In this document: positions 4,750-58,752 of the stretch, in pieces
Numbering within the stretch: position 1 is the first letter of the stretch
Layout of the letters: each line of letters starts with the position of its first letter
From: Chlorobaculum limnaeum
GTDB taxonomy: Bacteria; Bacteroidota; Chlorobiia; Chlorobiales; Chlorobiaceae
Direction of reading: 5' to 3'
Length of the DNA stretch: 64,000 nucleotides
NCBI RefSeq assembly: GCF_001747405.1
Contig: NZ_CP017305.1
Span: 1,196,001 to 1,260,000 of the forward strand
Position numbers and translations under genes: made by a program
The notes under the pieces: generated by a model
Databases searched by the model: none
What the model was told of the DNA's origin: nothing
What the model saw: the letters and a program-made list of their open reading frames with translations, nothing else

Positions 4750-7395
4750 ATGCGCAACCCCCATTCTGCCAATCGCATGGATTCTGCGGATAAAGCAAGG
4801 AAAGATTTCTTTATCAGTTACACCGGCGCTGACCGGCAATGGGCTGAGTGGATTGCATGGCAACTGAGGGAGGCCGGGTATTCGGTGGTTCTTCAGGCGT
4901 GGAATTTTCATGCGGGCGGGAATTTTGTCTTTGAGATGCACCGAGCAGCGAGAGAGACGACGCGAACCGTCGCGGTGCTGTCACCGAACTATCTCGATGC
5001 GCTGTTCACCCATCCGGAGTGGATCGCGGCATTCGCGCACGATCCGACAGGAACAGAGCGTTTGCTGATACCGATTCGGATTGCCAATTTTGTGCCGGAT
5101 GGAATGTTTGCCGGAAAGATTTATATCGATCTGGTCGGATTGAAAGAGGATGAAGCAAAAGCGCGGTTGCTTGATGAAATCGCGAAATCGATACAGGGCG
5201 GCTCGATTCCTCCGTCAACGCCACCGGCTTTTCCACAATCGGCGAAGCGTCCGGCGCAGAGCGCATCAACCGCGCCTCGTTTTCCCGGCATTCTGCCCGA
5301 TCATCACAATCTGCCTCGCCGGAATCCGAACTTTTCCGGTCGGGAAAAGCTCTTGCTCGATCTTCGCAAATCGTTGACCAAAGGGCAGAAAACCGCCCTG
5401 ACGCAGCAGGCGTTGTATGGGCTGGGCGGGATAGGCAAGACGCAGCTTGCTGTCGAGTATGCGTATCGGCACAGCGCGTCGTACGAGGTGATCTGGTGGA
5501 TTCGCTCGGAGGAGCCTTCGACGCTGGCGAGCGATTACGCGGCTTTGGCGCTGGAGCTGGGTTTGCCGGAGAAAGAGGAGGCCAATCAGGCGATGGTCGT
5601 TCAGGCGGTCACGAGGTGGCTGGAGCGCAACAACAACTGGCTGCTGATCTTCGACAACGCCAGAGATGCCGCCAGCATCAAGCCGTATCTGCCACGCTCG
5701 GCAAGCGGCCATGTGCTGATCACCTCTCGGAATCCCGACTGGAGGAGCGTCGTCAACCCGCTGCCGGTCGAGGTGTGGGAGCGGAATGAGTCGGTCGCGT
5801 TTCTCTTGAAGCGAACCGGGCGGACGGATGAAGCGGGAGCCAACGCCCTCGCCGAAGAGCTCGGCGACCTGCCGCTCGCGCTTGAACAGGCCGCAGCCTA
5901 TTGCGACAACAAAAAGAAAAGTTTTGCGGACTATCTGACGCTTTTCAACACCCGGAGAACAGAACTCTGGAACCGCGAAAAAGCGCCGGACGGCTACAAG
6001 GAAACCGTCGCGACAACGTGGAGCTTGGCCTTCGAGGAGATTCGCAAGGTTCCGATGGCCGAAGAGCTGCTGTCGCTATGCAGCATCGTAGCGCCGGATG
6101 CTATTCCACGGACTCTGCTCAATAGGGCGTTGGAGATTTATAAAGTAGTGGAAACAGTCGATGAGTTTGTGATTGATGATGCATACGATGCGTTGCGCTC
6201 CTATTCATTGATCACGCTTGAAGAAAAGTTCGTCAACGTTCATCGCTTGTTGCAATCAGTCGTCAGGGATCGGATGAACGAGGATGATCTGACCGGTTAT
6301 CGGCAAGCAATGGTATTGGCTTTGAGTGAACAGTTTCCAAAAGCAGGATACGATGATCCGTATTGTTGGCCGGAATGCTACATATTACACCCTCATTCGC
6401 TGTATATACTTGAGGATGTTCAGTTAGATTATGATAAGGTTTGGTATGCTCGAACAATATTACTGAATTTCATCGCGGGTTATAATTTAGGAAGAGGATT
6501 GTATGTTGATGCTGAGACTATTTATCGACGAATAATTGAAATAAGAGAAAAGCAATTAGGTTCAGATCATCTTGATGTGGCAGAAAGTATAAATAACTTG
6601 GCTGTGCTTCTGTATTCAAAGAGAGAATATTTGGAGGCGGAGCTGTTGTTAAGAAAAACTTTGGTGATAAGAAAAAGATATTTCGGTATTGATCATCTTG
6701 AAATTGCAACGACTCTCAATAATTTAGGAATGTTACTGACAGATGAGGGGAAGTATGAAGAAGCAGAGCCCTTTTTGCTTCAGTCGTTAACGATAACAGA
6801 AAATAAATTAGGTAAAGATCATCATGATCTTATAACGGTTCTGAATAATCTTGGCATATTATTTTATGCTCTTGGTAAGTATGATGAAGCGTTTGTATCG
6901 TATCGGCGAGCTTTAGATATTATTGAAAGGCGTTTTGGTTTTAATAACCTTTATATGTCAAAAACATTGATAAATTTTTCTAACTTGTTGGGAAAGTGTG
7001 GTTTAATAGAAGAGTCTGAGCTGTTGGCTCGTCAGTCTTTAATGATCGCGGAAAAACAACTTGGTGCGTATCATCCGGATTTGGTGACAAAGCTAAGTGG
7101 CTTGGCAATCTTGCTTAAGAAGGCAAAGTGTTATGATGAGGCATTATTTTTGCATAAAAGGGCTTTAGCGATATTGCTCGATCGGCTTGGTGCTGATAAT
7201 GTTGATGTTGCGAAATCTATAAATAATATTGGGATAGTGCTGCAAGAAATGGGAAGATATGAGGAGGCGAAACTGCATTTTCTAGATGCAATAAAAATAT
7301 TAGAAAAACGGTATGTTTTTAATTATCCCGATACCAAAATCGTTCGAGAGAATCTCGACATTCTTTTGCAGCTGATGCAAGACGACAAAAAGTGA
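4750..7395 (+). CDS. TIR-NB-ARC-TPR protein (bacterial NLR-like STAND NTPase)
   Basis: An 881-residue predicted defence protein. Residues about 17-150 form a TIR domain (FFISYTGADRQWAEW); the Glu in GNFVFEM (E62) aligns with the catalytic Glu of NAD-cleaving TIRs. NB-ARC follows: P-loop GLGGIGKT (224-231), Walker B LLIFDN, LITSRN sensor and DLPLALEQAA. About seven 42-residue TPR units of kinesin-light-chain type fill roughly residues 575-870. In known bacterial relatives ligand sensing by repeats triggers the TIR effector; that role is inferred here. The 5' part is about 60% GC and the TPR part about 32% GC in lines I counted. ATG at 4777 is an alternative start; neither start has a strong ribosome-binding site. 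Confidence 0.93.
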   Translation: MRNPHSANRMDSADKARKDFFISYTGADRQWAEWIAWQLREAGYSVVLQAWNFHAGGNFVFEMHRAARETTRTVAVLSPNYLDALFTHPEWIAAFAHDPTGTERLLIPIRIANFVPDGMFAGKIYIDLVGLKEDEAKARLLDEIAKSIQGGSIPPSTPPAFPQSAKRPAQSASTAPRFPGILPDHHNLPRRNPNFSGREKLLLDLRKSLTKGQKTALTQQALYGLGGIGKTQLAVEYAYRHSASYEVIWWIRSEEPSTLASDYAALALELGLPEKEEANQAMVVQAVTRWLERNNNWLLIFDNARDAASIKPYLPRSASGHVLITSRNPDWRSVVNPLPVEVWERNESVAFLLKRTGRTDEAGANALAEELGDLPLALEQAAAYCDNKKKSFADYLTLFNTRRTELWNREKAPDGYKETVATTWSLAFEEIRKVPMAEELLSLCSIVAPDAIPRTLLNRALEIYKVVETVDEFVIDDAYDALRSYSLITLEEKFVNVHRLLQSVVRDRMNEDDLTGYRQAMVLALSEQFPKAGYDDPYCWPECYILHPHSLYILEDVQLDYDKVWYARTILLNFIAGYNLGRGLYVDAETIYRRIIEIREKQLGSDHLDVAESINNLAVLLYSKREYLEAELLLRKTLVIRKRYFGIDHLEIATTLNNLGMLLTDEGKYEEAEPFLLQSLTITENKLGKDHHDLITVLNNLGILFYALGKYDEAFVSYRRALDIIERRFGFNNLYMSKTLINFSNLLGKCGLIEESELLARQSLMIAEKQLGAYHPDLVTKLSGLAILLKKAKCYDEALFLHKRALAILLDRLGADNVDVAKSINNIGIVLQEMGRYEEAKLHFLDAIKILEKRYVFNYPDTKIVRENLDILLQLMQDDKK

Positions 7396-7444: not shown

Positions 7445-8656
7445 ATGACCTCAACCTTTGTCATCCTTCTGCTCGTCCTACTCATCGCCGCGCTCGGATT
7501 CCTGCTTCTGCGCAGCCAGCGGGAGTCGAGTGCGCTTTCGGTTGAGAATGCGCGGTTGGCGGCGGAGGTGGCGCATGAGCGGGAGCGGGGAGCGTCCGTA
7601 GCTGAAGCCCGGCGGGCGGATGAGGCGCGGTTGGAGGCGGCGATGGAGAATCTGGCGAACCGGATCGTGGAGGAGCGGGGCGCGGCGCTTTCGGAGCAGC
7701 ACCGGCAGCGGCTCGACGGGCTTCTGGAGCCGTTTCGGTTGCAGCTCGACTCGTTCCGGCAGCGTGTCGATGAGGTGCATCGCAGCGACACGGAGCTGTC
7801 GGCGCGGCTGCTCGAACAGGTGCGGCAGCTTCAGGAGCTGAACCACCAGGTGAGCGACGAGGCCAACAACCTGGCGCGGGCCATCAAGGGGGAGAGCAAG
7901 AAGCAGGGGGACTGGGGCGAGCTGATTGTCGAGCGGCTGCTGGAGGCCTCGGGACTCGTGAAGGGGCGCGAATACACCGTTCAGGAGAGCGACCGAACGG
8001 AGGATGGGCGGTTCGTGCGGCCTGACTTCATGGTGCACCTGCCGGGCGAAAAGGCGGTGGTGGTCGATGCCAAAGTGTCGCTCACCGCCTACGAGCGCTG
8101 GTGCGGCGAGGAGCACGAGGCGCGACGCAGCGAGGCGTTGCGCGAGCATGTGCAGTCGGTGCGGCGGCACGTCGCCGAGCTGGAGCGCAAGGACTACGCG
8201 GCGCTCCGGGGCAACCGTACGCTCGACTTCGTCATCATGTGCATCCCGCTCGAACCGGCGTATCAGGCGGCGATGCAGGCCGATACGTCGCTCTTCTACG
8301 ATCTGGCGGGGCGGAACGTCGTCGTCACCGGCCCGGCGACGCTCATGATTACGCTGCGCCTCATCGCGCAGATCTGGCGGCGCGAGAACGAGAACCGCAA
8401 CGCCGAGCTGATCGCCGACAAGGCGGGCCGCATCTATGACCAGGTGGTGCTGGTCGCCGAAGCGATGACCGATGCCCGCCGCAAGCTCTCCGGCGTCTCG
8501 GAGAGCTTCGACCTCGCCATGAAGCGCCTCACCGAAGGCCGCGGCAACCTCGCCGGACGCGCCGAGGAGATTCGCAAACTCGGCGCGAAAGTCTCGAAGC
8601 GGTTGCCGCAAGAGTTAATGGATAATGAACAATTGATAATTGATAATGAATCGTAG
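7445..8656 (+). CDS. rmuC: DNA recombination protein RmuC
   Basis: A 403-residue RmuC homologue. An N-terminal membrane anchor (residues about 4-22) is followed by a long coiled coil rich in Glu, Arg and Ala (about 25-140), then the conserved RmuC nuclease-like domain with RPDFMVHLP and VVVDAKVSLTAYERW. RmuC limits recombination at inverted repeats. The last dozen or so residues (LMDNEQLIIDNES) are encoded by a dispersed AT-rich repeat. The TAG stop is part of the GTAG head of an adjacent REP-like hairpin, so the natural C-terminus appears to have been extended. Confidence 0.93.
   Translation: MTSTFVILLLVLLIAALGFLLLRSQRESSALSVENARLAAEVAHERERGASVAEARRADEARLEAAMENLANRIVEERGAALSEQHRQRLDGLLEPFRLQLDSFRQRVDEVHRSDTELSARLLEQVRQLQELNHQVSDEANNLARAIKGESKKQGDWGELIVERLLEASGLVKGREYTVQESDRTEDGRFVRPDFMVHLPGEKAVVVDAKVSLTAYERWCGEEHEARRSEALREHVQSVRRHVAELERKDYAALRGNRTLDFVIMCIPLEPAYQAAMQADTSLFYDLAGRNVVVTGPATLMITLRLIAQIWRRENENRNAELIADKAGRIYDQVVLVAEAMTDARRKLSGVSESFDLAMKRLTEGRGNLAGRAEEIRKLGAKVSKRLPQELMDNEQLIIDNES
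8618..8650. repeat. AT-rich dispersed tract inside the rmuC 3' end
   Basis: Units such as AATTGATAATTGATAATGAA overlap the last codons of rmuC. The inverted counterpart (TTCATTATCAATTATCAACT) lies at 8885-8904, so the rmuC-sbcD gap is bracketed by the same tract in opposite orientations. Confidence 0.55.
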
Positions 8657-8917: not shown

Positions 8918-10174
8918 TTGTCTTTAAGAATCCTTCATACCTCCGACTGGCATCTCGGGCGGTCGCTGTTCGGGCGGAGCCGCCTGCATGAGTTCGAGGC
9001 GTTTCTCGACTGGCTGGCGGGAACCGTCGAGTCGCGCGGCATCGAGGTGCTCGTCGTGGCGGGCGATATTTTCGACACCACCACGCCCGGCAACGCCACG
9101 CAGAAGCTCTACTATCAATTCCTGAACCGCATCGCCCTCACGCCTGGATCGCCGTGCCGACACGTCGTCATCACGAGCGGCAACCACGATTCGCCCACCT
9201 TTCTCGATGCGCCGAAGGAGCTGCTGCGCTCGTTCGACGTGCATGTGCTTGGCGCGGTGACGGGCGAACTGGCGGACGAGGTGCGCGTACTCTTCGACCG
9301 GCAGGGAAGTCCCGAAGCGATTGTCTGCGCGGTGCCGTTCCTGCGGGATCGCGACATTCGCACGGTCGAGCCGGGGGAGAGTCTGGAGGACAAAATCCGC
9401 AAGCTCTCCGACGGTGTCTCGCTGCACTACGCCGAGATTGCGCGGATTGCCGCCGAACGCCGCCGGAGCCTCGGCGAACAGATTCCGGTGATCGCGATGG
9501 GCCACCTCTTCACGGCGGGGTGCGTCACGAGCGAGGATGACGGCGTACGTGAAATTTACGCCGGAGCGCTTTCGATTGTCTGCTCGACCGCCTTTCCGCC
9601 TGTCTTTGACTACGTTGCCCTCGGCCACATGCACGTACCGCAACGGGTTGACAAAACGGAACATATGCGCTATTGCGGCTCGCCGATTCCGATGGGATTC
9701 GGCGAAGCGAAGCAGCAGAAGCTGGTGCTTCAGGTTGATTTCGAGGGGCGCGAGCCGACCGTCACGGAGATCGAAATTCCCCGCTTCCAGCCGCTCGAAC
9801 GGCTCGCCGGGAGCCTCGACGAACTGAGCGCCGCCATTGCCGCGCTGCGGTCGGCGGGCAGCAACGCCTGGCTGGAGATCGACTATCGCGGTGACGAAGC
9901 GCCCGCGACGGTGCAGGAGGCGATGGAGCAGGCGGTCGCGGGATCGCTGCTCGAAATCCGGCGCATCCGCAACAACCGTCCGCTCCAGCAGGCGCTGCGC
10001 CACTCCGCGGCGGACGAGACGCTCCAGCAGCTCGACCCCGAAGCGGTTTTCAACCGCTGCCTCGAAGCGTACGGCACGGACGAATCCCTCCGCCCCGCGC
10101 TCGTCGAGAGCTACCGCGAGGTGCTTCGCTCGATCCGCGAAGAGGACGTGATGGCCGAGGAGACGAAATCATGA
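8918..10174 (+). CDS. sbcD: Exonuclease SbcCD, nuclease subunit SbcD
   Basis: An Mre11-type phosphoesterase of about 418 residues. All metal-binding motifs are visible: TSDWHLG at the start, AGDIFD, SGNHDS, GHLF and LGHMH. SbcD partners SbcC to cut hairpins and protein-blocked ends. I place the start at TTG 8918, giving fMet-SLRILHTSDWHLG, the usual SbcD N-terminus. The open frame runs upstream to 8855, but those codons are a dispersed AT-rich repeat. The 3' end overlaps sbcC by 4 bp (ATGA), which implies translational coupling. Confidence 0.93.
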   Translation: MSLRILHTSDWHLGRSLFGRSRLHEFEAFLDWLAGTVESRGIEVLVVAGDIFDTTTPGNATQKLYYQFLNRIALTPGSPCRHVVITSGNHDSPTFLDAPKELLRSFDVHVLGAVTGELADEVRVLFDRQGSPEAIVCAVPFLRDRDIRTVEPGESLEDKIRKLSDGVSLHYAEIARIAAERRRSLGEQIPVIAMGHLFTAGCVTSEDDGVREIYAGALSIVCSTAFPPVFDYVALGHMHVPQRVDKTEHMRYCGSPIPMGFGEAKQQKLVLQVDFEGREPTVTEIEIPRFQPLERLAGSLDELSAAIAALRSAGSNAWLEIDYRGDEAPATVQEAMEQAVAGSLLEIRRIRNNRPLQQALRHSAADETLQQLDPEAVFNRCLEAYGTDESLRPALVESYREVLRSIREEDVMAEETKS

Positions 10175-13100
10175 TTATCCAGAAGCTCCGTTTCGCCAAT
10201 CTGAACTCGCTGCAAGGGGAGTGGGAGATCGATTTCACCCGGCCCGACTATCTTTCGGACGGGCTGTTTGCCATCACCGGCCCCACCGGATCGGGCAAAA
10301 GCACCATTCTCGACGCCATTTGCCTCGCGCTCTACGGCCAGACGCCGCGCCTCGGGCGGATCACCAAAAGCAGCAACGAAATCATGTCGCGCCATGCGGG
10401 GGACTGCTTCGCCGAGGTGACCTTCGCGACGGCTTCCGGCGCGTACCGCTGCCACTGGAGCCAGCACCGCTCCCGCCACAAGCGCGGCGGCGAGTTGCAG
10501 GCGCAGAAGCATGAGATTTCCGACGCGGCGTCGGGCGCGGTTATCCAGACAAAATTGCAGGAGACGTTGCTGGAAGTCGAGGCGCGAACCGGCATGGACT
10601 TCGACCGCTTCACCCGTTCGATGCTGCTCGCCCAGGGCGCGTTTGCGAAGTTTTTGCTGGCGGACGCCGACGAGCGCGCTCCCGTGCTCGAACAGATCAC
10701 CGGCACGGTACTTTACTCGACTATTTCGATGAAGGTGCACGAGCGGCGGCGCGACGAGCAGGCGCGGCTCGACCGGATTCAGCTCGAATGCGAGGGCATC
10801 CGCCTTTTGAGCGAGGAGGAGCTGCGAGTGCTCGAAAACGAGCGAGCGGAGCGCATCGAAACGGAACACGAGTTGAACGCCGAGTTCGAAAGCGACTCGG
10901 CGGCGCTGCGCTGGCTTCAGGAGATCGCCCGTCTCGAAGAGTTGCTCGCGGCCATCGGCGGCGAAGCAACGGCGCTCGACGTCGAGCGCGAGGCGTTTCG
11001 GCCGGACGCGGAGCGGCTCCGGCTTGCCCGCAACGCCGCCGCCGTCGAACCGCTGCACGCCGTGCTGACGCTGAAACGGGCGCAGTTGCAGCGTGACAGC
11101 GATGAACTTGCCGCCCGGGAGGCGGGGCGTCCCGATGCCGAGCATGAGTGCCGGGAGGCGGAAGCGCGGCACGAAGCTGCCGCAGCGGCGCTCGCTTCGG
11201 CGCAGGAGAGCGTGGCGGCGGCGAAGCCGCTCATCGCGCAGGCGCGTCAGCTCGACGCGGTGATCGAGGGCAAGCGGCTGGAGGCCGGGCGGCGCAAGCG
11301 GGAGCTGGAAGCGCTCGAAGAGCGGCGCGGGCGGCTTGACGCCGAACGCACGGCGGCTTCGGCGAGCGTCGCATCCTCTCGCAATGAATTGCTGGCTCTC
11401 CGAACCTGGCAGGAGGAACATCGCGAGGATGCATCGCTCGTCGGCGCGCTCTCGGGCATCCGCCACGCCTTCGATGAATTGCGCCCGGCTGCGGAGCGGG
11501 AGCAGGCGGCGGCGTCCGGCATCGCCTCCGTCCGGCAATCTATCGAGAGCTTGCGAGATGAGATCGCGAAGATCGAGCTTGAATCGAAAGCCTCGCAAAT
11601 CGCGTACGATGAGGCCCGCCAGTCGCTCGACGAGCGCAAGGCGTTGTTCGATTCGCAGCTTGGCGGCTCGACGCTCAAGGCGCTTCGCGACCAGCTCGAA
11701 CTGCTGCGCGAGCGCCGACGGCTGCTCGAAGAGATCGTAACGCTCTATGCGTCGGGCAAGAAGCTGCTGCCGAAGATCGAGCGGATCGACACGGAGATTC
11801 AGGAGAGCGAACGCAGGCGTGGCGACAGGTTGCTCAAGCTCGATCATGCCCGCGAGCTTCTCGCCCATGCGGAGCGCGAGGCGGCTTCGCAGGAAGAGAT
11901 CGCGCGGCTGGCCGACAAGGTGCGCAGTTACGAACAGGATCGGCTCGCTCTCGTGGAGGGCAAGCCCTGTCCGCTGTGCGGTTCGGAGCACCATCCTTAT
12001 GCTGACGGCTTGTTGCCCGAGCGCGGCCAGGAAGCGTTGCAAGCGGCGCGAACTGCCGCGCGGGAGCGTGACGCGGCTGTCCGAAAGCTCGAAATCGAGC
12101 TTGCCTCGCTTGGCAAGGAGATCGAACAGATGCAGCAGCATCGCGATGACCTGGCCGCCATGCGCGAGTCGTCCGGGCGGCAGTGCCTTGCGTTGCTCCA
12201 AAAAGCAGGTATCGCAACCGCGCCGCGTGAAGCCGAGCCGGTCGTGCTCGAAGCGCTTGCGGAGAGCGGGCGAAAGGCTGACGAGCTTTCCGCCCGCATC
12301 GAGCAGCTCGACCTGCTTGAGCAGCGGATTCGCGAAGATGAAGCCCGCTTGCAGCAGCTCTCCGAAACCGCGCGAAACGACGAGCGTCGGCTCGAATTGG
12401 CCTCGGAGCATCTGCGCGTCAGTCGCCTCGACCTCGCGCGTCTCGAACGCGAGCGCGAAGCCGTGCGTCGAGAACTCGGCGAGCGGACGCTGCTCTTGCG
12501 CCGTCTCGTCGAACCGTACGGCGTCACGAACGATGAGGAGATTGCCGAATCGCTCCTCGCCGGGCTGGAAGAGCGGCGCGATGCGTGGGTGAGCGAGGAG
12601 GCGCGGGGCAAGAGTCTCGAACGCTCTGTGCAGGATGGCGAATCGTCACTCCGCAACATCGACGAACAGCTTGCTGCGCTCGATGCCGACCTCGTCGCCC
12701 GGTGCGAGGAGGCAGCAGCGGTAGTCGCTGATGTCGAATCCGGCAGAAAAGAGCGATATGAATTGTTTGGCGACAAATCACCCGATGCCGAGGAGGAGCG
12801 GCTCGAACGCCTTGCGCAGGCGGCGCGTGACCATCTCACGAGTGCGTCGGAAATGCTCAGCGCCGCGCGGCAGGCGCTTGCCGTGCTCGATACCTCGATA
12901 GCGGAGCTGCGTCGCAACGTCGAAGAGGAGCGCACGGAGGTCGGGAGCAGGGAGGCGGAGTTCGCCAAAGCGCTCGCCGGAAAAGGGTTTGCCGACGAAG
13001 CGGCGTTTGTCGCGGCCTCGCTTCCGGAGGCCGAACGCGAGCGGCTCGAAAGCGCCGCGACTTCGCTGGAGAACCGGAAGCGCGACATCGATCTCAGGCG

Positions 13101-24746: not shown

Positions 24747-27700
24747 ATGGATAATCCCTTTTTCGATCACCCGATTCTGAACTCGCCTTACGACTATCCA
24801 GTTCGTCACTGGGAGCTCGATTCGACCGGCCAGCCGACGCAGCGCGTCATTGAAACCCGACGCCGGGCCGATTTCATCACGCCGATTCCGAAGCCAAAGA
24901 AGCGCCGGGCTGAAGAGGAGCAGCAGGAGATTGTGTTCGACGAGGGGAGCGGTTTGTCAACCGAAACGCAGCAGTACGATCCAACCTCGATGATCAACGC
25001 GGTTCGCGTCGAGGTCGATAAGTGGCGTCAGTTGCCCCATCCCTCAAGCTGGCAGGTGACGCCCGAAACCGCCCGGTTGCTCAGGCACTGGCGGCATCAC
25101 GACTTCAGCGGCATCCGCCCCTTCTTCTGCCAGCTCGAAGCGGTTGAAACCGCGATCTGGCTGACCGAGGTTGCGCCTCATGCGGGCAAAACCGGCAAAC
25201 GCTTCCTCGACCATCTCGAAAGCGCCAAAGAGAACGCCAATCCCGAAATCCTTCGGCTGGCGCTCAAGCTCGCCACCGGCGCGGGCAAAACCACCGTGAT
25301 GGCCATGCTCATCGCCTGGCAGGCGGTCAACGCCGCTCGCCATCCTCAGGGCCGCAAGTTCACCCGAGGCTTTCTCATCGTCACCCCAGGCCTGACCATC
25401 CGTGACCGCCTGCGCGTGCTCCTGCCGAACGACTCCGAAAGCTACTACAAGCATCGCGAGCTGGTGCCGAGCGACATGATCGGCGACATCGAACGCGCAA
25501 AGATCGTCATCACCAACTACCACGCTTTCCGGCTCCGCGAGCGGCTCGACCTCTCGAAAGGCAACCGCGCACTGCTGCAAGGGCGCGGCGCTCCGTTGCA
25601 GACGCTCGAAACCGAGGGGCAGATGGTGCAGCGCGTCATGGGCGAGCTGATGGGGCTGAAAAACATCATGGTCATCAACGACGAGGCGCACCACTGCTAC
25701 CGCGAAAAGCCGGATAACGCCGAGGTGAGCGGTCTAAAGGGGGACGAGCGGAAAGAGGCCGAAGAGAACAACGAGGCTGCTCGCGTCTGGATCAGCGGTA
25801 TCGAAACGGTTAAGCGCAAGCTTGGCGTGAACTGGGTGATCGATCTGTCGGCGACGCCGTTTTTTCTGAGTGGTTCCGGTTATGCCGAGGGTACGCTTTT
25901 TCCGTGGACGATGAGCGACTTCTCGCTGATGGACGCCATCGAGTGCGGCATCGTCAAGCTGCCGCGCGTGCCCGTTGCCGACAACATTCCCGGCGGCGAC
26001 ATGCCGAAGTTCCGCGAACTCTGGAAACATATCGGCAAGAAAATGCCGAAGAAGAGCCGCAGCAAGTCCAACGCCTACGATCCGCTCAACATTCCGGTCG
26101 AGTTGCAGACCGCCCTCGAAGCGCTTTACGGTCATTACAGCAAAATCTTCGACGAGTGGTGGAAGGAGAAGATCAGCGTACCGCCCTGCTTCATCATCGT
26201 TTGCAACAACACCTCGACCTCCAAGCTGGTCTATGATTACGTCTCCGGCTTCCGGCGCGAGCGCGAGGATGGTTCGGCGGAGTTCCATAACGGCAGGCTC
26301 GAACTTTTCCGGAACTTCGACGCCGACGGCACGCCGTTGCCGCAGCCGCGTACGCTGCTCATCGACAGCAAGCAGCTCGAGTCGGGCGAGGCGCTCGACA
26401 GGAACTTCCGTGACGTGGCCGGGCCGGAGATCGAGCAGTTCCGTCGCGAAATCATCGAGCGCACCGGCGACCGCCGCCAGGCCGAGAATCTCACCGATCA
26501 GGAGCTTCTGCGCGAGGTGATGAACACCGTCGGCAAGGCGGGGCGCCTCGGCCAGTCGATCCGCTGCGTGGTGTCGGTCTCGATGCTCACCGAGGGGTGG
26601 GACGCCAGCACCGTTACCCACGTGCTCGGTGTGCGGGCCTTCGGTACGCAGCTTCTCTGCGAGCAGGTCATCGGACGCGCTCTGCGCCGTCAATCCTACG
26701 AGTTGAACGAAGAGGGGCTGTTCGATACCGAATACGCCGACGTGCTCGGCATTCCGTTTGACTTCACCGCCAAACCGGCAGTCATCAAGCCGACGCCGCC
26801 CCGCGAAACCGTGCATGTCCGGGCGGTGCGCCCGGAGCGCGACCATCTCGAAATCACCTTCCCGAACCTCTCCGGCTACCGGGTCGAACTGCCGGAAGAC
26901 AAACTTTCCGCCGCGTTCAACGACGAGTCAGTGCTCGAACTGACGCCCGACCTTGTCGGCCCGTCGATCACGCGGAACTCCGGCATCATTGGCGAAGCGA
27001 TCGATCTCAGCCTCGACCATCTCGACAGCATCCGCCGCTCGACGCTGCTGTTCCATCTGACCCAGCGTTTGCTCTTCACCAAGTGGCGCGATCCGAACGA
27101 AGCGCCGAAGCTGCACCTCTTCGGCCAGCTCAAGCGCATCACGAAGGAGTGGCTCGACGCCTGCCTCGTCTGCAAAGGCGGAACCTATCCCGCGCAGCTC
27201 ATGTATCAGGAGCTTGCCGACATGGCCTGCAACCGCATCACCGCCGCCATCACGCGGGCCGAATTCGGCAAGCGCCCCGTCAAGGCGATGCTCGACCCGT
27301 ACAATCCGTCAGGCTCGACCATGTACGTCAGCTTCAATACCTCGAAGCGCAGCCGCTGGGAGACCGACGCCCGCAAGTGTCACATCAACTGGGTAGTTCT
27401 CGACAGCGATTGGGAAGGGGAGTTCTGCCGGGTGGCTGAATCGCATCCAAAGGTGAACGCCTACGTCAAGAACCACAACCTCGGCCTCGAAGTGCCGTAC
27501 CGTTACGGCTCAGAAATGCGCCGCTACCTGCCGGATTTCATCGTGCTTGTCGATGACGGTCACGGCAGTGATGACCTGTTGCATCTGGTCGTTGAAGTCA
27601 AGGGCTATCGCCGCGAGGACGCCAAGGAGAAAAGATCGACGATGGAGACCTACTGGATTCCCGCCGTCAACAATCTCGGCACGTTCGGGCGCTGGGCCTT

Positions 27701-27794
27701 CGCCGAGCTTACCCAGCCCTACACCTTCGAGATCGACATGGCAAAGCAGATCGAAGAGGCGTTCGGGGTGATGCTGGAAGAGGTCAGGAAATAA
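24747..27794 (+). CDS. Type III-like restriction helicase-endonuclease (Res subunit)
   Basis: A 1015-residue DEAD/DEAH translocase-nuclease. Walker A is GAGKT (about 178-182) and the Walker B is DEAH (about 312-315). Motif VI is in EQVIGRALRRQ. A C-terminal PD-(D/E)xK nuclease shows PDF (about 928) and EVKGY (about 949). It matches stand-alone type III Res proteins that pair with a beta-class methyltransferase, here the next gene 57 bp downstream. ATG 24747 is preceded by a perfect AAAGGAGG site at 24730-24737, so this start is preferred over the upstream frame opening at 24693. Confidence 0.92.
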   Translation: MDNPFFDHPILNSPYDYPVRHWELDSTGQPTQRVIETRRRADFITPIPKPKKRRAEEEQQEIVFDEGSGLSTETQQYDPTSMINAVRVEVDKWRQLPHPSSWQVTPETARLLRHWRHHDFSGIRPFFCQLEAVETAIWLTEVAPHAGKTGKRFLDHLESAKENANPEILRLALKLATGAGKTTVMAMLIAWQAVNAARHPQGRKFTRGFLIVTPGLTIRDRLRVLLPNDSESYYKHRELVPSDMIGDIERAKIVITNYHAFRLRERLDLSKGNRALLQGRGAPLQTLETEGQMVQRVMGELMGLKNIMVINDEAHHCYREKPDNAEVSGLKGDERKEAEENNEAARVWISGIETVKRKLGVNWVIDLSATPFFLSGSGYAEGTLFPWTMSDFSLMDAIECGIVKLPRVPVADNIPGGDMPKFRELWKHIGKKMPKKSRSKSNAYDPLNIPVELQTALEALYGHYSKIFDEWWKEKISVPPCFIIVCNNTSTSKLVYDYVSGFRREREDGSAEFHNGRLELFRNFDADGTPLPQPRTLLIDSKQLESGEALDRNFRDVAGPEIEQFRREIIERTGDRRQAENLTDQELLREVMNTVGKAGRLGQSIRCVVSVSMLTEGWDASTVTHVLGVRAFGTQLLCEQVIGRALRRQSYELNEEGLFDTEYADVLGIPFDFTAKPAVIKPTPPRETVHVRAVRPERDHLEITFPNLSGYRVELPEDKLSAAFNDESVLELTPDLVGPSITRNSGIIGEAIDLSLDHLDSIRRSTLLFHLTQRLLFTKWRDPNEAPKLHLFGQLKRITKEWLDACLVCKGGTYPAQLMYQELADMACNRITAAITRAEFGKRPVKAMLDPYNPSGSTMYVSFNTSKRSRWETDARKCHINWVVLDSDWEGEFCRVAESHPKVNAYVKNHNLGLEVPYRYGSEMRRYLPDFIVLVDDGHGSDDLLHLVVEVKGYRREDAKEKRSTMETYWIPAVNNLGTFGRWAFAELTQPYTFEIDMAKQIEEAFGVMLEEVRK

Positions 27795-27851
27795 AACAAC
27801 GGATACCGCTTGGCGCTCTCAAGCCCAAGTTGCGAAATCATCATAACCATC

Positions 27852-30644
27852 ATGGCAAAAAAGCAATCGTTACCGCTCGACGTCGATATTTTCAGGCACG
27901 ACGAGGCGACGCGCAAGAACATACCGACCGCCGAGCATCAGTCGGTCATGGAGAAGGATGCAGAGAGTCCCGTCCGCGTGGCGTACGAGCGGCGGAACCG
28001 CGACCTCGATCCGCAGCTTGTGTGGCGCGGCAAGGATGAGCAGGACTGGTCGGAACTCGTGGTGCCCGCTCCGCCGCTCTACATTCAGGAGAAGGTGCAC
28101 CCGAAGGTGCTGATCGACGATTTGATGCGCCGCAGCAGGGCCGATGCGATGGCTGCCGAGGCGCAGTTCGACCTTTTTGCCGACTTCAACGGCTTGCCGG
28201 ACGAGGACGCCAAAACCGAGTTCTACCGGCACGACGCGCATTGGGCCAACCGCATGATTCTCGGCGACAGCTTGCAGGTGATGGCGAGTCTCGCCGAGCG
28301 CGAGGGGCTTCGCGGCAAGGTGCAGTGCATTTACATCGATCCGCCGTATGGCATCAAGTTCAACTCCAACTTCCAGTGGTCAACCACCAGCCGCGACGTC
28401 AAGGACGGCAACACCGACCACATCACCCGCGAGCCGGAGCAGGTCAAAGCGTTCCGCGACACCTGGCGCGATGGCATCCATTCGTATTTGACGTATCTGC
28501 GCGACCGCCTGACCGTGGCGCGGGATTTGCTGACCGAATCCGGCTCGATTTTCGTCCAGATCGGCGACGAGAACGTGCATCGGGTGAGAGCTTTGATGGA
28601 TGAAGTTTTCGGGGATGAAAATTTTGTTGCTCAAATCAATTTTTCTACAACCAGTGGTTTTAATTCCGAGTTTCTTGCCTCCACTGGAGATTCACTTCTG
28701 TGGTACTCGAAAAACATATCAAAGCTCAAGTTTCGTCGTTCATATGAAGTGATTGAAAAATCGGCAGCGGCTGGAAATTACATGTGGATAAGAACTCCGG
28801 ATGGTGTTTTGCGGAGTATGACAAAGAGTGAGCGTGAAGACAGTTCTAATATTCCTGATGGTGGAAAAATATACCAGCCGACATCGTTAGTTTCACAAGG
28901 CGCGACGAATTCACCAACAGAATTCGTTTATCAGAAAAAAAATTATAACCCACCACCAAATCAGCATTGGAAAACAGCAGTTCAAGGAATGTTTCGGCTT
29001 GCTAAAGCAGGACGAGTTCACGTTGCAGCAAACAGTATTCGCTATGTTAGACTTGCTGATGATTTTAGTGCTAAAGCGAGAACTACATCTTGGACAGATA
29101 CTGCCACCGGAAATTTTACTGAGGACAAAATGTATGTGGTTCAAACTGCTTCAAAAGTTATCGAACGCTGCATCCTGATGGCAACCGATCCCGGTGATTT
29201 GGTGATTGATCCGACGTGTGGTTCGGGGACGACGGCTTTTGTGGCGGAGCAGTGGGGGCGGCGGTGGATTACCGTCGATACTTCGCGCGTGGCGCTGGCT
29301 CTGGCGCGGGCGCGCATCATGGGGGCGCGGTACTCGTACTACCTGCTTGCCGACAGCCGCGATGGGCAGCTCAAGGAGGCGGAAATCACCGGATCGGCTC
29401 CGTCGTCGCAACCCGCCAGAGGCGACATCCGGCACGGATTCGTCTATGAGCGCGTGCCGCACATCACGCTGAAATCGATTGCCAATAACGCCGAAATCGA
29501 CGTCATCTGGGAGCGGCACCAGCAACGGCTCGAACCGCTTCGCCAACAGCTCAACAACGCCCTCGGCAAGCAGTGGCAGGAGTGGGAAGTCCCGCGTGAA
29601 GCCGCCAGGAACTGGCCCGAAGAGGCGAGCGCCCTCCACGCCGCATGGTGGGAAGAGCGCATCGCACGTCAGCAGGAGATCGACGCCTCCATCGCCGCCA
29701 AAGCAGAATTCGAGTACCTCTACGACAAACCGTACATCGACCGGAAGCGAGTCCGCATCGCAGGCCCCTTCACCGTCGAAAGCCTCTCGCCGCACCGCGT
29801 GCTTGGCGTCGATGAAAACGACGGCCTCATCGACTCCCTCGTCGAAACCGGCAGCGGCTACGACGACCAGCAGAGCTTCGTTTCGATGATCCTCGAAAAC
29901 CTGAGAACCTCCGGCGTCCAGCAAGCGAACAAAAGCGACAAGATCGACTTCATCTCGCTCACCCCGTGGCCCGGTGAGCTGGTCTGCGCCGAAGGGCGCT
30001 ACCTCGACGCCGACGGCGCGACCGAACGCCGCGCGGCCATCTTCATCGGCCCCGAATTCGGCACCGTCTCGCGTCCCGACCTCGTCGGAGCCGCCCGCGA
30101 AGCCGGAGACGCCGGATTCGACGTGCTCGTCGCCTGCGCCTTCAACTACGACGCGCACTCCTCCGAATTCAACAAACTCGGCAGAATTCCGGTGCTCAAA
30201 GCCCGGATGAACGCCGACCTCCACATGGCCGAAGACCTCAAAAACACCGGCAAAGGCAACCTCTTCGTCATCTTCGGCGAGCCGGACATCGACATTCTCG
30301 ACGCAGACGGCGGCAAGATACAAGTCCGTGTCAACGGCGTGGACGTCTTCCACCCCAACACCGGCGAAGTCCGCAGCGACGGAGCCGAAGGCATCGCCTG
30401 CTGGTTCATCGACACCGACTACAACATGGAATCCTTCTTCGTCCGCCAAGCCTACTTCCTCGGCGCGAACGATCCCTACAAAGCCTTGAAAACAACGCTG
30501 AAATCAGAAATCAATCAGGAAGCCTGGTCAACGTTAAACAGCAATATTTCTCGACCCTTCGCCAAACCGCACACGGGAAGGATCGCAGTAAAGGTAATCA
30601 ACCACCTCGGCGACGAGGTGATGAAGGTGTATCGGGTGGGATAA
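27852..30644 (+). CDS. Site-specific DNA-methyltransferase (type III Mod-like, beta class)
   Basis: About 930 residues. DPPYGIKF (D163) precedes DPTCGSGTT (D453), the beta-class order for N6-adenine or N4-cytosine methyltransferases. The segment between them, about 28590-29165, should be the target-recognition domain and is clearly more AT-rich than both flanks. A long C-terminal extension (about 450 residues) follows the SAM-binding fold. It forms the modification half of the locus with the Res gene upstream. The start ATG 27852 (MAKKQSLPLDVDIF) is preferred over the TTG at 27810. Confidence 0.92.
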   Translation: MAKKQSLPLDVDIFRHDEATRKNIPTAEHQSVMEKDAESPVRVAYERRNRDLDPQLVWRGKDEQDWSELVVPAPPLYIQEKVHPKVLIDDLMRRSRADAMAAEAQFDLFADFNGLPDEDAKTEFYRHDAHWANRMILGDSLQVMASLAEREGLRGKVQCIYIDPPYGIKFNSNFQWSTTSRDVKDGNTDHITREPEQVKAFRDTWRDGIHSYLTYLRDRLTVARDLLTESGSIFVQIGDENVHRVRALMDEVFGDENFVAQINFSTTSGFNSEFLASTGDSLLWYSKNISKLKFRRSYEVIEKSAAAGNYMWIRTPDGVLRSMTKSEREDSSNIPDGGKIYQPTSLVSQGATNSPTEFVYQKKNYNPPPNQHWKTAVQGMFRLAKAGRVHVAANSIRYVRLADDFSAKARTTSWTDTATGNFTEDKMYVVQTASKVIERCILMATDPGDLVIDPTCGSGTTAFVAEQWGRRWITVDTSRVALALARARIMGARYSYYLLADSRDGQLKEAEITGSAPSSQPARGDIRHGFVYERVPHITLKSIANNAEIDVIWERHQQRLEPLRQQLNNALGKQWQEWEVPREAARNWPEEASALHAAWWEERIARQQEIDASIAAKAEFEYLYDKPYIDRKRVRIAGPFTVESLSPHRVLGVDENDGLIDSLVETGSGYDDQQSFVSMILENLRTSGVQQANKSDKIDFISLTPWPGELVCAEGRYLDADGATERRAAIFIGPEFGTVSRPDLVGAAREAGDAGFDVLVACAFNYDAHSSEFNKLGRIPVLKARMNADLHMAEDLKNTGKGNLFVIFGEPDIDILDADGGKIQVRVNGVDVFHPNTGEVRSDGAEGIACWFIDTDYNMESFFVRQAYFLGANDPYKALKTTLKSEINQEAWSTLNSNISRPFAKPHTGRIAVKVINHLGDEVMKVYRVG

Positions 30645-30685
30645 GTGAAAGATAAGCGTATTTATAATATTAAACACATATTAAT

Positions 30686-32275
30686 ATGGAACATTATCTT
30701 AATTTTAATGACTCGGAGTTCCGAAAAAGCTTTGCTGATGTGTTCAATGTTGATCGAATGATTGAGACCTCGTTTGATCTTACAGATACTCAACGCAAGC
30801 AAAGTAATAATAGATTTGAAAAACAGTGCTGTATTGATTTTTCTGGCGTAGCCGCAGCTTTGCTAGTTGATGATGAAGGTTATCGCCTATTTGAAAATAT
30901 TTTAAGATCGATTCAAGATTTTAATAAAAAGAGGATAAGAATGCATTTCAGATTTATGCTTGTGTATCCCTACAGTGCACATGCAATGTCAAGAATACAG
31001 GCGGAGACCTCAAAAAACAGGACGAGTATTAAAGAACCTTCAATTAGTGAGATGCCTTATGATGTTGTTGGTAGGGTTGAGTCAGTAGATTATGATACTT
31101 TTATGAGATCGAATTTTGTGAAAAATCAACAACGCTTTTTAGAAAATATTGGCATCTTATTAGAAGAGTATGATATTTGTGCAAAAGGTGAGAATCGATT
31201 AAATATTCGTTTTACACCAACAGCTGTTAATGTTTGTATGTATAGATTAAATGATTGTATTTATATAAGCCCGTATTTGTTGGCTAAAGAAAGAAGACGA
31301 GATGATGTATGTGTTATGAGAGCGCCTGTTATAAAGATGACAAGGGATAATGATCGTGAAACTTTTGATGCCTACTTGGATCATTTTAGATATTTGTGGA
31401 ATTTACCTCAGTCTATTTTTCTTGAAGATGCAACGTATTATAAAGATTTAAGTGTTCAGAATGGTATTGCAAAAATAAAGCCGCCGAAAGATATTGATTA
31501 TAAATATAAGGCTATGAGAATTAAAGAAAAAAGAATTAAAGGAAGTAGCCGTTCTGGTGATTCAGGTTCATGGAGATTGCAGGTAAAAGATTTACTGTTT
31601 AGAATGTGCAGAGAAATGCCTATAGAATTGCCTACCAAGGAGACTGTTTTTATTGCATGTGCATGGCGGCAAGAAGATGCACATCTATCATCAAGTCCAA
31701 ATGTTTTAGCAAAAAAAATAAACAAGTGGTTAAAAGAGGATCTTGGCAGTGCTATAGACGTGCATATTGTTGAGGCAGAGGCGGGCGGCGACTTGGATAA
31801 AAAAATATATTCAGGGTTGAATTCAAGCACTGTTGGTATAATTTTGTTGACTTGTGATGTCGCAAGAGATGGTGGAGGGTTTTATGCTAAACCTAATATC
31901 TATCATGAATTAGGATACCTTATGGGCAAATATGCAGGCTATGGTTATGAGAAAAGAGTTATTCCGGTTATTCAGAAATTGAATGGAATTGCAGTTGAGG
32001 CTCCAACAAATATATCAAATAAAGCATCAATTTATTTTGAGGGCGATAGGATTGATGCTGTTTATAAGGATATACTCATGTCTTTGTATAAACTTTTAGT
32101 ATTAGAAATTGGAGTGATATGTTCTGCACTTAGGTCTCATTTGAAAAGAGTAGAAGGTGTTTATGAGTTTTTTCCAAACGCAATAACTTGGGCTGAAAGT
32201 ATACGCGAGTCCATTAAGTCATTGCCGTGTAAAGATTGTGAGGTAAAGGATTGTTCTAATATATGCAAAGATTGA
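30686..32275 (+). CDS. Putative effector with PLD-like-like middle region and C-terminal TIR-like domain
   Basis: A 529-residue AT-rich gene (30-40% GC in lines I counted), 41 bp behind the methyltransferase. Residues about 315-450 resemble the predicted nucleotide-binding TIR-like domain (PF10137 type): VFIACAW at the start, VGIILLTCDVA, then KPNIYHELGYLMGK and RVIPVI. Residues about 60-290 are less clear; IRFTPTAVNVCMYRLNDCIYISPYLL and a YLDHFRYLWN helix recall the DUF5919-like (PLD-like fold) regions of some regulators. The C-terminus has a Cys cluster (CKDCEVKDCSNIC). I infer an abortive-infection-type effector linked to the restriction genes. No known system with this exact trio comes to mind. 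Confidence 0.8.
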   Translation: MEHYLNFNDSEFRKSFADVFNVDRMIETSFDLTDTQRKQSNNRFEKQCCIDFSGVAAALLVDDEGYRLFENILRSIQDFNKKRIRMHFRFMLVYPYSAHAMSRIQAETSKNRTSIKEPSISEMPYDVVGRVESVDYDTFMRSNFVKNQQRFLENIGILLEEYDICAKGENRLNIRFTPTAVNVCMYRLNDCIYISPYLLAKERRRDDVCVMRAPVIKMTRDNDRETFDAYLDHFRYLWNLPQSIFLEDATYYKDLSVQNGIAKIKPPKDIDYKYKAMRIKEKRIKGSSRSGDSGSWRLQVKDLLFRMCREMPIELPTKETVFIACAWRQEDAHLSSSPNVLAKKINKWLKEDLGSAIDVHIVEAEAGGDLDKKIYSGLNSSTVGIILLTCDVARDGGGFYAKPNIYHELGYLMGKYAGYGYEKRVIPVIQKLNGIAVEAPTNISNKASIYFEGDRIDAVYKDILMSLYKLLVLEIGVICSALRSHLKRVEGVYEFFPNAITWAESIRESIKSLPCKDCEVKDCSNICKD

Positions 32276-32346
32276 TGATGCGTGTGGGAGATGGAGAAAT
32301 GAGCAGAAAAAAGAGCATGAAGGTTTCAGAAGGCAGGTAGCCATCG

Positions 32347-32466
32347 ATGTCTCGTTCGTCGGCGATTGAGTATCTGACCTTTGTCTCCGCCGTCAGCAAC
32401 TCGGATGCTCCCGTGTAGATTCGCTATGGTGACTGAGCTGTTGCCGTCGAAAGAGAGAGGTTTAGT
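32347..32466 (+). pseudogene. Probable RhuM-family gene remnant
   Basis: Frame 32347 reads MSRSSAIEYLTFVSAV..., then SDAPV-stop-IRYGD-stop. This follows the start of RhuM (virulence/Fic-associated) proteins, which read roughly EYLxFxAxx...SVExRYEDENIWLTQK. Stops at 32416 and 32434 fall where Glu codons are expected, and the rest of the gene is missing. The match is short, so the call is tentative. Confidence 0.4.
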
Positions 32467-32850: not shown

Positions 32851-33123
32851 TCACTTTTTGATGTAGGCGTTAAGGCCGATGGTTACGGGTTTGCCCTCGA
32901 TGATGACGTCGGTGACGGCGTTGCCGTGGGTGCTGGCGACGACGAGGGTTTTGCCGGATGACGAGGGGGTCGGTTTTTCGAGGTCTATTTCGATGCAGAG
33001 CTTGTTGTCCCTGATTTCAACGGTCATGGCCATATTGTGCGTTGCTTTGATGGTTACAGAGTTGCTGCCGGTCTCAATATACTCTTCCGCTGGGGGTCCG
33101 TCGTTAGATTTCTGAATTCCCAC
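32851..33123 (-). CDS. Small conserved hypothetical protein
   Basis: A frame of 90 residues from GTG 33123; an internal start at MAMTVEIRDN is possible. The core (VEIRDNKLCIEIDLEKPTPSSSGKTL) followed by VVASTHGN and IGLNAYI resembles a widespread family of short beta-rich proteins with conserved SSSGKT and GLNxY motifs, of unknown role. It has no signal peptide. Confidence 0.6.
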   Translation of the reverse strand: MGIQKSNDGPPAEEYIETGSNSVTIKATHNMAMTVEIRDNKLCIEIDLEKPTPSSSGKTLVVASTHGNAVTDVIIEGKPVTIGLNAYIKK

Positions 33124-33228
33124 GGTCGGGTGGCTTTAAATCTTCAAGGTCTCTTCCACGTCCAGCTAAACGGTCTGCCTGTTTATCCGGGAAACGAGAC
33201 AGAGCGCGTACCGGCAGCCAATCCCCGA

Positions 33229-33876
33229 TTACTCCTTGCCGGATCGACCTTGATCGGGCTCGATTACGATATGCACCTCGTTACGCCGCAGGAAGGGGAT
33301 GGTCCATGGAGGATCGTACGAGGCGAGCTTTGGTTCCGACAGCGCGCGATAGCCCTGTTTTTTGAGCCAGGTTTGCAGTTGTCTGCCATACTTTTCAAGA
33401 TTGGCGGCGGAGTGAAGGCCCGAAAAGGTGACTACGGCAATCGTCGAGGGGGGCAGCTCCCTGAGCTTCACTTCGGGATCGAGCGGTTCGGGGGCAGACT
33501 CCAGGGTAAAACCCTCGGGAAGTACGAACGCCATGCTCCATCCGCCTTTGCCGGGTTGCTGCAAGACTGGCGCCGTCATGGAGATTTTTTCGCTGCTGCG
33601 CTCCTGCAAAACCGGCGCCGTCATGCTGATCGACGTTTTCGACCTGTTCTTGCCGAAAATATATCCCGCCAGCCGCTTGAAGCCCTTGCCGCTTGCGGCA
33701 GTGTAACTCTCTCCGTCGAGGAAGGTTTCGGCGATCACCATCGGGCCATAACGACGCACTTCAAACGCGCCATCGTGTTTCAGCAGTTCGTAGTGCGGTT
33801 CAGCGGCGTCCCGTTTTCCCAGCACGGAGCATCCTGCAAGCAGGAGGCTTGTCAGCATCAGCAATACGGTTTTCAT
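33229..33876 (-). CDS. SOUL-family heme-binding lipoprotein
   Basis: A 215-residue lipoprotein. The signal peptide ends in the lipobox LLAGC (C16). The mature part has the SOUL/HBP pattern: YELLKHDGAFEVRRYGPMVIAET at the start, a GFKRLAGYIFGKN helix, ISMTAPVL and FVLPEGFT. SOUL proteins bind heme or tetrapyrroles, so in a phototroph an envelope role in tetrapyrrole handling is plausible. It is monocistronic and convergent with small genes to its left. Confidence 0.9.
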   Translation of the reverse strand: MKTVLLMLTSLLLAGCSVLGKRDAAEPHYELLKHDGAFEVRRYGPMVIAETFLDGESYTAASGKGFKRLAGYIFGKNRSKTSISMTAPVLQERSSEKISMTAPVLQQPGKGGWSMAFVLPEGFTLESAPEPLDPEVKLRELPPSTIAVVTFSGLHSAANLEKYGRQLQTWLKKQGYRALSEPKLASYDPPWTIPFLRRNEVHIVIEPDQGRSGKE

Positions 33877-34128
33877 GATCTCGTTCCCTTTTTATCATTG
33901 TGGTGCGTCATCGTTACGCTCTCTTCAACGACGGAAGGCTGAAAAAGGTTTTTTCGATGGATCGTGGCAGCGAGTGGATTTTAACTTCCATTGTGGAAAA
34001 TATGGCGACAAGTCTAAGCTCGATGGCAGCATCGGCGACGAAGGCCCTGTGTTGCTTCATAGCTGCAATTGTATGAGCTTTGTAGTGTTGGCGGACAGTT
34101 TCAGGAACAATCACAGGAGCATATAACC

Positions 34129-57879: not shown

Positions 57880-58752
57880 ATGAAAAACTTAACAGGAACG
57901 TGGATTGGAACGATTCGGGGCACCAATCAAGGTGCTGTGTTTGCTAAGTTTTCAGAAACTAATGGTTGTATATCAGGTGAGGTTCACATAAATGACCCTG
58001 TGCATGGTACTGGAGTTTATACTGTATCAGAAGGAAAAAATTCTTATGATAAAATCAGATTAGTTCTAATTCCTAATAAAGTTACTATAAAATATGGGCA
58101 CGGCATTGTAACTGTTCTTGCTCATTTAGTCAGCCAAACACAATGTGAAGGGGAGTGGCGGTCAACAATTGGTACAGCAGGAACGCTTACAATAGCAAAG
58201 GTGGATATGCTTGATACAGGCATTAAAGATGCAGGTTATAATGATATTCAGCAAATGAAATCAACTACAATGATATGCGATCAAGGAAATTCATTAAAGT
58301 CAGGGCGTACAAAAGTTTTTGTCAGTTATAGCCATGAAGATTCTGATTGGTTGAAAAGGCTTAAAATACATCTTAAACCTTTAGAACGCGATTACGCCAT
58401 TGATATTTGGGAGGATACGAAAATTCAGCCTGGTTCAAAATGGGTTGAAGAAATTGAGAAAGCAATCCAATCGGCAAAGATTGCGTTGCTAATTATTAGC
58501 GCAGATTATCTTGCTTCAGATTTTATAGTTAATAACGAACTACCTCCTTTGCTTGATGCCGCCAACAAAGATGGTGCTTTAATTATGCCGCTAATTGTTA
58601 GCCCTTCAAGGTTTATGTCGGTTAAAAATTTATCGCGATTTCAGGCAATCAATGATCCAAAAAAACCATTAATCAATATGTCAAAAGGTGCACAAGAAGA
58701 GATTTTAGTTAATTTGACAGAAAAGGTCGAAAGTATTCTTAGAGCTAATTAA
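57880..58752 (+). CDS. TIR-domain protein with unrecognised beta-rich N-terminal domain
   Basis: A 290-residue AT-rich gene. Residues about 144-280 form a TIR domain: KVFVSYSHEDSDWLKRL, DIWEDTKIQPGSKW with a catalytic-type Glu in WVEEIE, and ALLIISADYLASDF. Residues 1-110 are strand-rich (GTWIGTIRG, FAKFSE, EGEWRSTIGTAGTLTIAKV), resembling a small beta barrel or sandwich that I cannot name; it may bind a ligand. It follows the MazF pair by 55 bp. A perfect 18-bp inverted repeat follows. Confidence 0.85.
   Translation: MKNLTGTWIGTIRGTNQGAVFAKFSETNGCISGEVHINDPVHGTGVYTVSEGKNSYDKIRLVLIPNKVTIKYGHGIVTVLAHLVSQTQCEGEWRSTIGTAGTLTIAKVDMLDTGIKDAGYNDIQQMKSTTMICDQGNSLKSGRTKVFVSYSHEDSDWLKRLKIHLKPLERDYAIDIWEDTKIQPGSKWVEEIEKAIQSAKIALLIISADYLASDFIVNNELPPLLDAANKDGALIMPLIVSPSRFMSVKNLSRFQAINDPKKPLINMSKGAQEEILVNLTEKVESILRAN

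Follow-up and report, generated by a model that had tools for sequence, protein, structure and literature searches.

A rare TIR-like gene in an exchangeable position behind a type III-like restriction-modification pair of Chlorobaculum limnaeum

Organization of the locus

The analyzed window is a 64,000-nt stretch (positions 1,196,001-1,260,000) of the complete, 2.80 Mb genome of Chlorobaculum limnaeum. It contains three genes on one strand, separated by gaps of 57 and 41 bp, and their coordinates, order and strand all agree with an earlier sequence-only reading of this DNA. The features of the locus are as follows.

24747..27794, + strand: Res, type III-like helicase-nuclease of the BPTD_3080 family (NF046055, Pfam ResIII and RE_endonuc, motifs, dN/dS)
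27852..30644, + strand: Mod, type III-like beta-class DNA methyltransferase (PDLC03632, N6_N4_Mtase, motifs)
30645..30685, + strand: AT-rich junction of Mod and the third gene, 41 bp (DNA of the congener G008 is alignable up to 30674)
30686..31615, + strand: N-terminal part of the third gene, about 310 residues, unclassified (common to the Tistrella homologue; no HKD)
31616..32275, + strand: C-terminal TIR-like domain of the third gene (PF10137, TIR_2, five-protein alignment, AF2 model)
32298..32403, + strand: decayed 5' remnant of rhuM containing an in-frame TAG, immediately downstream of the third gene (tblastn)

Res (1015 aa; ATG start with GGAGG upstream) matches the NF046055 "BPTD_3080" profile with 1371.5 bits over residues 6-1001, above the curated cut-off of 800, and contains the Pfam domains ResIII and RE_endonuc. 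All its motifs are intact, namely Walker A GAGKTT at residue 178, DEAH at 312, SATP at 368, QVIGRALR at 640 and PD...EVK at 929. Mod (930 aa counted from the ATG; the open frame begins at 27810) matches the PADLOC MTase_III model PDLC03632 with 1437 bits along the full length, as well as Pfam N6_N4_Mtase. It retains the DPPY and DPTCGSGT motifs, and has a long C-terminal extension. These profile matches and catalytic motifs bear out the earlier assignment of the two genes to a type III-like restriction-modification (RM) pair. The pair is intact and under purifying selection, with dN/dS of 0.05-0.10 for Res (compared with three congeners, G007, G012 and G010) and 0.08-0.29 for Mod (compared with G007, G010 and G063).

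The PADLOC REase_III models of classical type III enzymes (EcoP15I type) score at most 20 bits against Res, and a PDB sequence search with Res gave no match of solved structure. Given this weak likeness to classical type III Res, "type III-like" is the right term: Res may function like a type III enzyme, but it belongs to a separate family. The middle of Mod (approximately 28627-29127) shows no DNA similarity to G007, G063 or other relatives, while its flanks are alignable, which fits a swapped target-recognition region. A second, diverged Res/Mod pair of the same family is encoded in the same genome (L038, C1:2122096-2127997), in the order Mod-Res and followed by a DUF3800 gene.

No terminator-like site was found between the genes of the trio. 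Co-transcription of the third gene with the RM pair is plausible, given this and the 41-bp gap.

The window and the genome contain further TIR genes. The gene at 4750-7395 of the window encodes an NLR-like TIR - NB-ARC - TPR protein of 881 aa (TIR_2, 110 bits; NB-ARC; TPR_12) and is followed by rmuC (7445-8656), and another TIR gene lies at 57880-58752 (290 aa; TIR_2, 65 bits; PF10137, 25 bits). Genome-wide, TIR_2 is matched 19 times, a high number for 2.8 Mb. Downstream of the locus, the 301-aa open reading frame at 33037-33942 has no match in Pfam, PADLOC, NCBIfam or PHROGs. The window also contains an ATP-citrate lyase gene, and the FMO bacteriochlorophyll a protein is encoded in the genome (725 bits); both point to a green sulfur bacterium as the most likely host.

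Domains of the third protein

The third gene (30686-32275, + strand) encodes a protein of 529 aa, P0003. Its C-terminal part scores 19.2-22.1 bits against PF10137, below the curated cut-off of 24.7, and 19 bits against TIR_2, while the homologue from Tistrella described below exceeds the PF10137 cut-off with 26.6 bits. In a five-protein alignment the catalytic-type Glu E408 in NIYHELGYLMGK (motif (N)V..E.G) is conserved, and the Glu motif HE-[LI]-G is common to P0003 and three bona fide PF10137 proteins (95-134 bits). In spite of the sub-threshold score, the conserved Glu upholds the TIR-like domain of the PF10137 type that had been read from the sequence.

The AF2 model of the TIR part (pLDDT 67, pTM 0.69) shows beta and alpha elements alternating as in a flavodoxin-like fold. 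Foldseek with this model gave no match in PDB at E<0.001; its list is made up of flavodoxin-like folds of a generic kind, among which SEFIR (5y8e) and TIR-STING (9lmq) rank in the middle and are not significant. The AlphaFold model of the whole protein (two sequences) has a mean pLDDT of 36 and is unusable, and the Foldseek matches obtained with it were discarded; a PDB sequence search with the third gene returned nothing useful.

For the first 310 residues, Pfam gave no family at E<=3. The sequence-only reading had described a middle region, with a mark of uncertainty, as PLD-like; the HxK(x)4D motif and a Pfam PLD match are both absent, so that neither motif nor Pfam supports a phospholipase D (HKD) identity.

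Origin and relatives of the third gene

The GC content of the third gene is 34.6% (GC3 0.26), compared with 61.1% (0.81) for Res and 57.0% (0.70) for Mod. Relatives of P0003 were sought in 98 genomes of the class, 395 of the phylum and 385 of the Tistrella class, and in addition among genome contigs, in plasmid and phage sequences and in viral contigs. The only full-length relative found is encoded on plasmid pTM3 of Tistrella mobilis (L003, 11767-13359; 26-28% identity). The scan of genome contigs yielded Tistrella only, G376 gave a weak match to the TIR part alone, and none was found in viral contigs, the phage collection or E. coli genomes. No other locus among the 56 that show similarity to Res, a count that includes fragments and one duplicate, carries a P0003 homologue. 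From its base composition and distribution, the third gene looks like rare, recently acquired cargo. Direct repeats flanking it are of chance length only, and hence no mobile-element ends were identified.

The Tistrella homologue adjoins Nudix, truncated NrdJ-like and PfkB-like genes with no Res or Mod alongside, and the Res/Mod genes of Tistrella itself are on this replicon too, at a distance of about 235 kb. The pTM3 region 8422-13950 of L003 comprises, on one strand, genes for a Nudix hydrolase, a truncated adenosylcobalamin-RNR-like protein, a PfkB-like protein, the TIR-like P0003 homologue and a 179-aa protein. It is possibly an unnamed nucleotide-centred defence operon. Since the searches yielded a single full-length homologue, the usual context of the third gene is poorly sampled. 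The sequence-only reading held that occurrence of the gene mainly in unrelated contexts would speak against a dedicated trio; such a context is indeed what we observe, on scarce data (one relative).

Exchange of genes behind Mod in congeners

Congeners share synteny with the DNA on both sides of the third gene, on the left up to approximately 30674 (in G008) and on the right from 32278-32466. In congeners whose Res is 79-93% identical to that of the window this slot is occupied by other genes. It contains an intact RhuM gene after Mod in G007. In G008 and G003 a remnant of Mod precedes the slot, and the occupants are a NACHT-domain gene in G008 and DUF4760-like and UDP-glucose dehydrogenase genes in G003. 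At other sites, a PIN_12 gene directly follows Mod in G010, and a RelE-N/UvrD helicase gene follows Mod in G063 (UvrD by Pfam; the RelE-like start by eye). In three congeners (G007, G010, G012) a DUF4062-HATPase gene, missing from the window, is located directly after Res.

The rhuM remnant of the window was detected by tblastn with the intact RhuM of G007 as the query (51% identity, E=4e-4), and its local DNA alignment score is 76, compared with a shuffle maximum of 54. Like the window, G020, G008 and G003 have rhuM remnants in the slot or close to it, and remnants of Mod and Res occur in G003, G008, G017 and G020. Most of Res and Mod has given way to a STAND-type ATPase gene in two genomes, G020 and G017: a STAND/NACHT-like gene of about 1500 codons lies between fragments of the Res N-terminus and the Mod C-terminus (2182-6741 of L081 in G020; 6998-11568 of L080 in G017, there as two open reading frames).

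The presence of different genes at the same slot in close relatives suggests a swap-in cargo position, not a fixed three-gene machine. Exchange of an accessory gene of a restriction operon is thereby visible at single-gene resolution within one genus.

Wider Res loci and TIR genes beside Mod

Elsewhere, the most common third gene encodes a RelE-N/UvrD helicase (13 of the 56 fetched Res-bearing loci). This protein, of about 700 aa, combines a RelE-like N-terminus with a UvrD helicase, and variable genes are inserted before it (L035, L040, L089, L093-L095, L098, L099, L101, L103-L105). Across the wider set of relatives, the positions between Res and Mod or downstream of Mod are taken by DUF262/GmrSD, DUF3800, DUF2971 and AAA genes.

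The 54 genomes with BPTD_3080-family Res contain 11 PF10137 matches, and besides the gene of the window, two of the PF10137 genes are situated inside an RM operon. In G324, with the order Res-Mod-TIR, the TIR gene (L061, 12320-12985; 221 aa, 102 bits) overlaps the stop of Mod by 4 bp; in G655 (L108, approximately 9595-10407) it lies directly after Mod and before Res. Both proteins belong to a single short type that lacks the N-terminal region of P0003, and the adjacent Mods are 75% identical, so that the two cases amount to about one further independent pairing, found in two distant genomes. Still, the pairing of RM with TIR recurs, since sister systems in two lineages have a different, short PF10137 gene immediately next to Mod. 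Some RM-TIR coupling may thus be real, as suggested by the recurrence of PF10137 genes beside Mod, and the short TIR gene of G324 and G655 is a better candidate for it than the gene of the window.

Interpretation

The best-supported reading, which we consider rather probable, is that the TIR-like gene is independent cargo on an intact type III-like RM operon. The operon would be a platform on which accessory genes are exchanged, with the TIR-like gene as its present occupant. Mod would methylate the host DNA and Res would cut unmodified phage DNA; the third gene, probably read through from the RM promoter, would encode an NAD-consuming or NAD-derived signalling effector acting via E408, with the N-terminal region as the likely trigger. 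The third protein would then be a largely independent second defence gene product rather than an obligate RM subunit. All of these activities, from DNA cleavage and methylation to the depletion of NAD and protection against phage, are predictions made from the genes.

The sequence-only reading had proposed a dedicated trio, in which restriction is backed by a TIR-like second layer. A functionally coupled, PrrC-like design of this kind, where RM cuts first and the TIR-like protein, held inactive by Res/Mod or sensing them, depletes NAD when restriction fails, seems doubtful for the window. The common strand, the 41-bp gap without a terminator, the different PF10137 gene abutting Mod in G324 and G655, and the precedents of PrrC with PrrI and of HEPN or RhuM genes in RM operons (PMC3710099) all agree with it. 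However, the third gene is compositionally foreign, is not conserved with the RM pair (no other Res locus shows the linkage), has its relative in an unrelated operon, and gives way to unrelated genes in congeners whose Res is 79-93% identical, and the short TIRs of G324 and G655, which lack the N-terminal region, may with their similar Mods reflect one event. A dedicated trio is thus not supported for the window, and what survives of the proposal is the general pairing of restriction with a TIR second layer, as represented by G324 and G655. A broader version, in which the slots behind Res and Mod are dedicated to interchangeable back-up effectors (TIR, RhuM, PIN, NACHT, GmrSD, DUF4062-HATPase and RelE-UvrD being the occupants named), each wired to a common signal of the RM complex, so that an incoming TIR-type NAD effector would be RM-gated on arrival, appears unlikely. 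If a cargo slot did confer control gated by the RM pair, it would offer a natural modular chassis in which to study how a failure of restriction is relayed to cell-wide responses.

The third protein might also be no NADase effector, its TIR-like flavodoxin fold serving in regulation or repair as a domain that binds or processes nucleotides. The sub-threshold Pfam score, the generic flavodoxin-like Foldseek list, where SEFIR and TIR-STING are not significant, and the Nudix, RNR-like and PfkB-like genes of the Tistrella operon are consistent with such a role, but the HE-[LI]-G motif agrees with the bona fide PF10137 proteins and the Tistrella homologue exceeds the family cut-off, and we regard this possibility as quite improbable. 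That the third gene is a non-functional relic, carried for a time by a defence locus in decay, is scarcely credible, since the window has three intact frames and dN/dS of Res and Mod is well below 1, although the Mod/Res remnants in four congeners (G003, G008, G017, G020) and the rhuM remnants demonstrate frequent decay.

Comparison with known systems

Res and Mod of the window are clear full-length members of the BPTD_3080 family (NF046055) and of PADLOC MTase_III (PDLC03632), respectively; the window has a TIR-like gene where the RelE-N/UvrD helicase is the commonest third gene of BPTD_3080 loci elsewhere. The homologue on pTM3 of Tistrella mobilis is full-length and has the same two-part layout as P0003, but differs in its neighbours, with no Res/Mod among them. 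With the PF10137 TIR effectors of Pycsar (PycTIR) and CBASS (Cap12) the third protein shares the C-terminal domain with the conserved Glu motif, while its N-terminal region has no cyclic-nucleotide, STING or SAVED domain recognised by Pfam, and the trio, consisting of Res, Mod and the TIR-like gene only, contains no Pycsar or CBASS nucleotide cyclase gene. Our literature search on the RM-TIR trio, BPTD_3080 and PF10137, which covered mainly open-access papers, revealed no named system of this kind.

The two-tier concept itself has been published: PrrC acts as a second line behind PrrI, and RhuM and HEPN genes occur in RM operons (PMC3710099). The locus resembles PrrC/PrrI and the HEPN- and RhuM-linked operons in that an effector gene is added to a restriction operon, and RhuM even fills the same slot in G007 and persists as a remnant in the window. 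It differs from them in that the effector is TIR-like, the RM pair is type III-like and not type I, and a coupling of effector and RM is only putative here. Designs that join RM with an effector are already known from PrrC, and the locus of the window would be a variant with a TIR-like gene.
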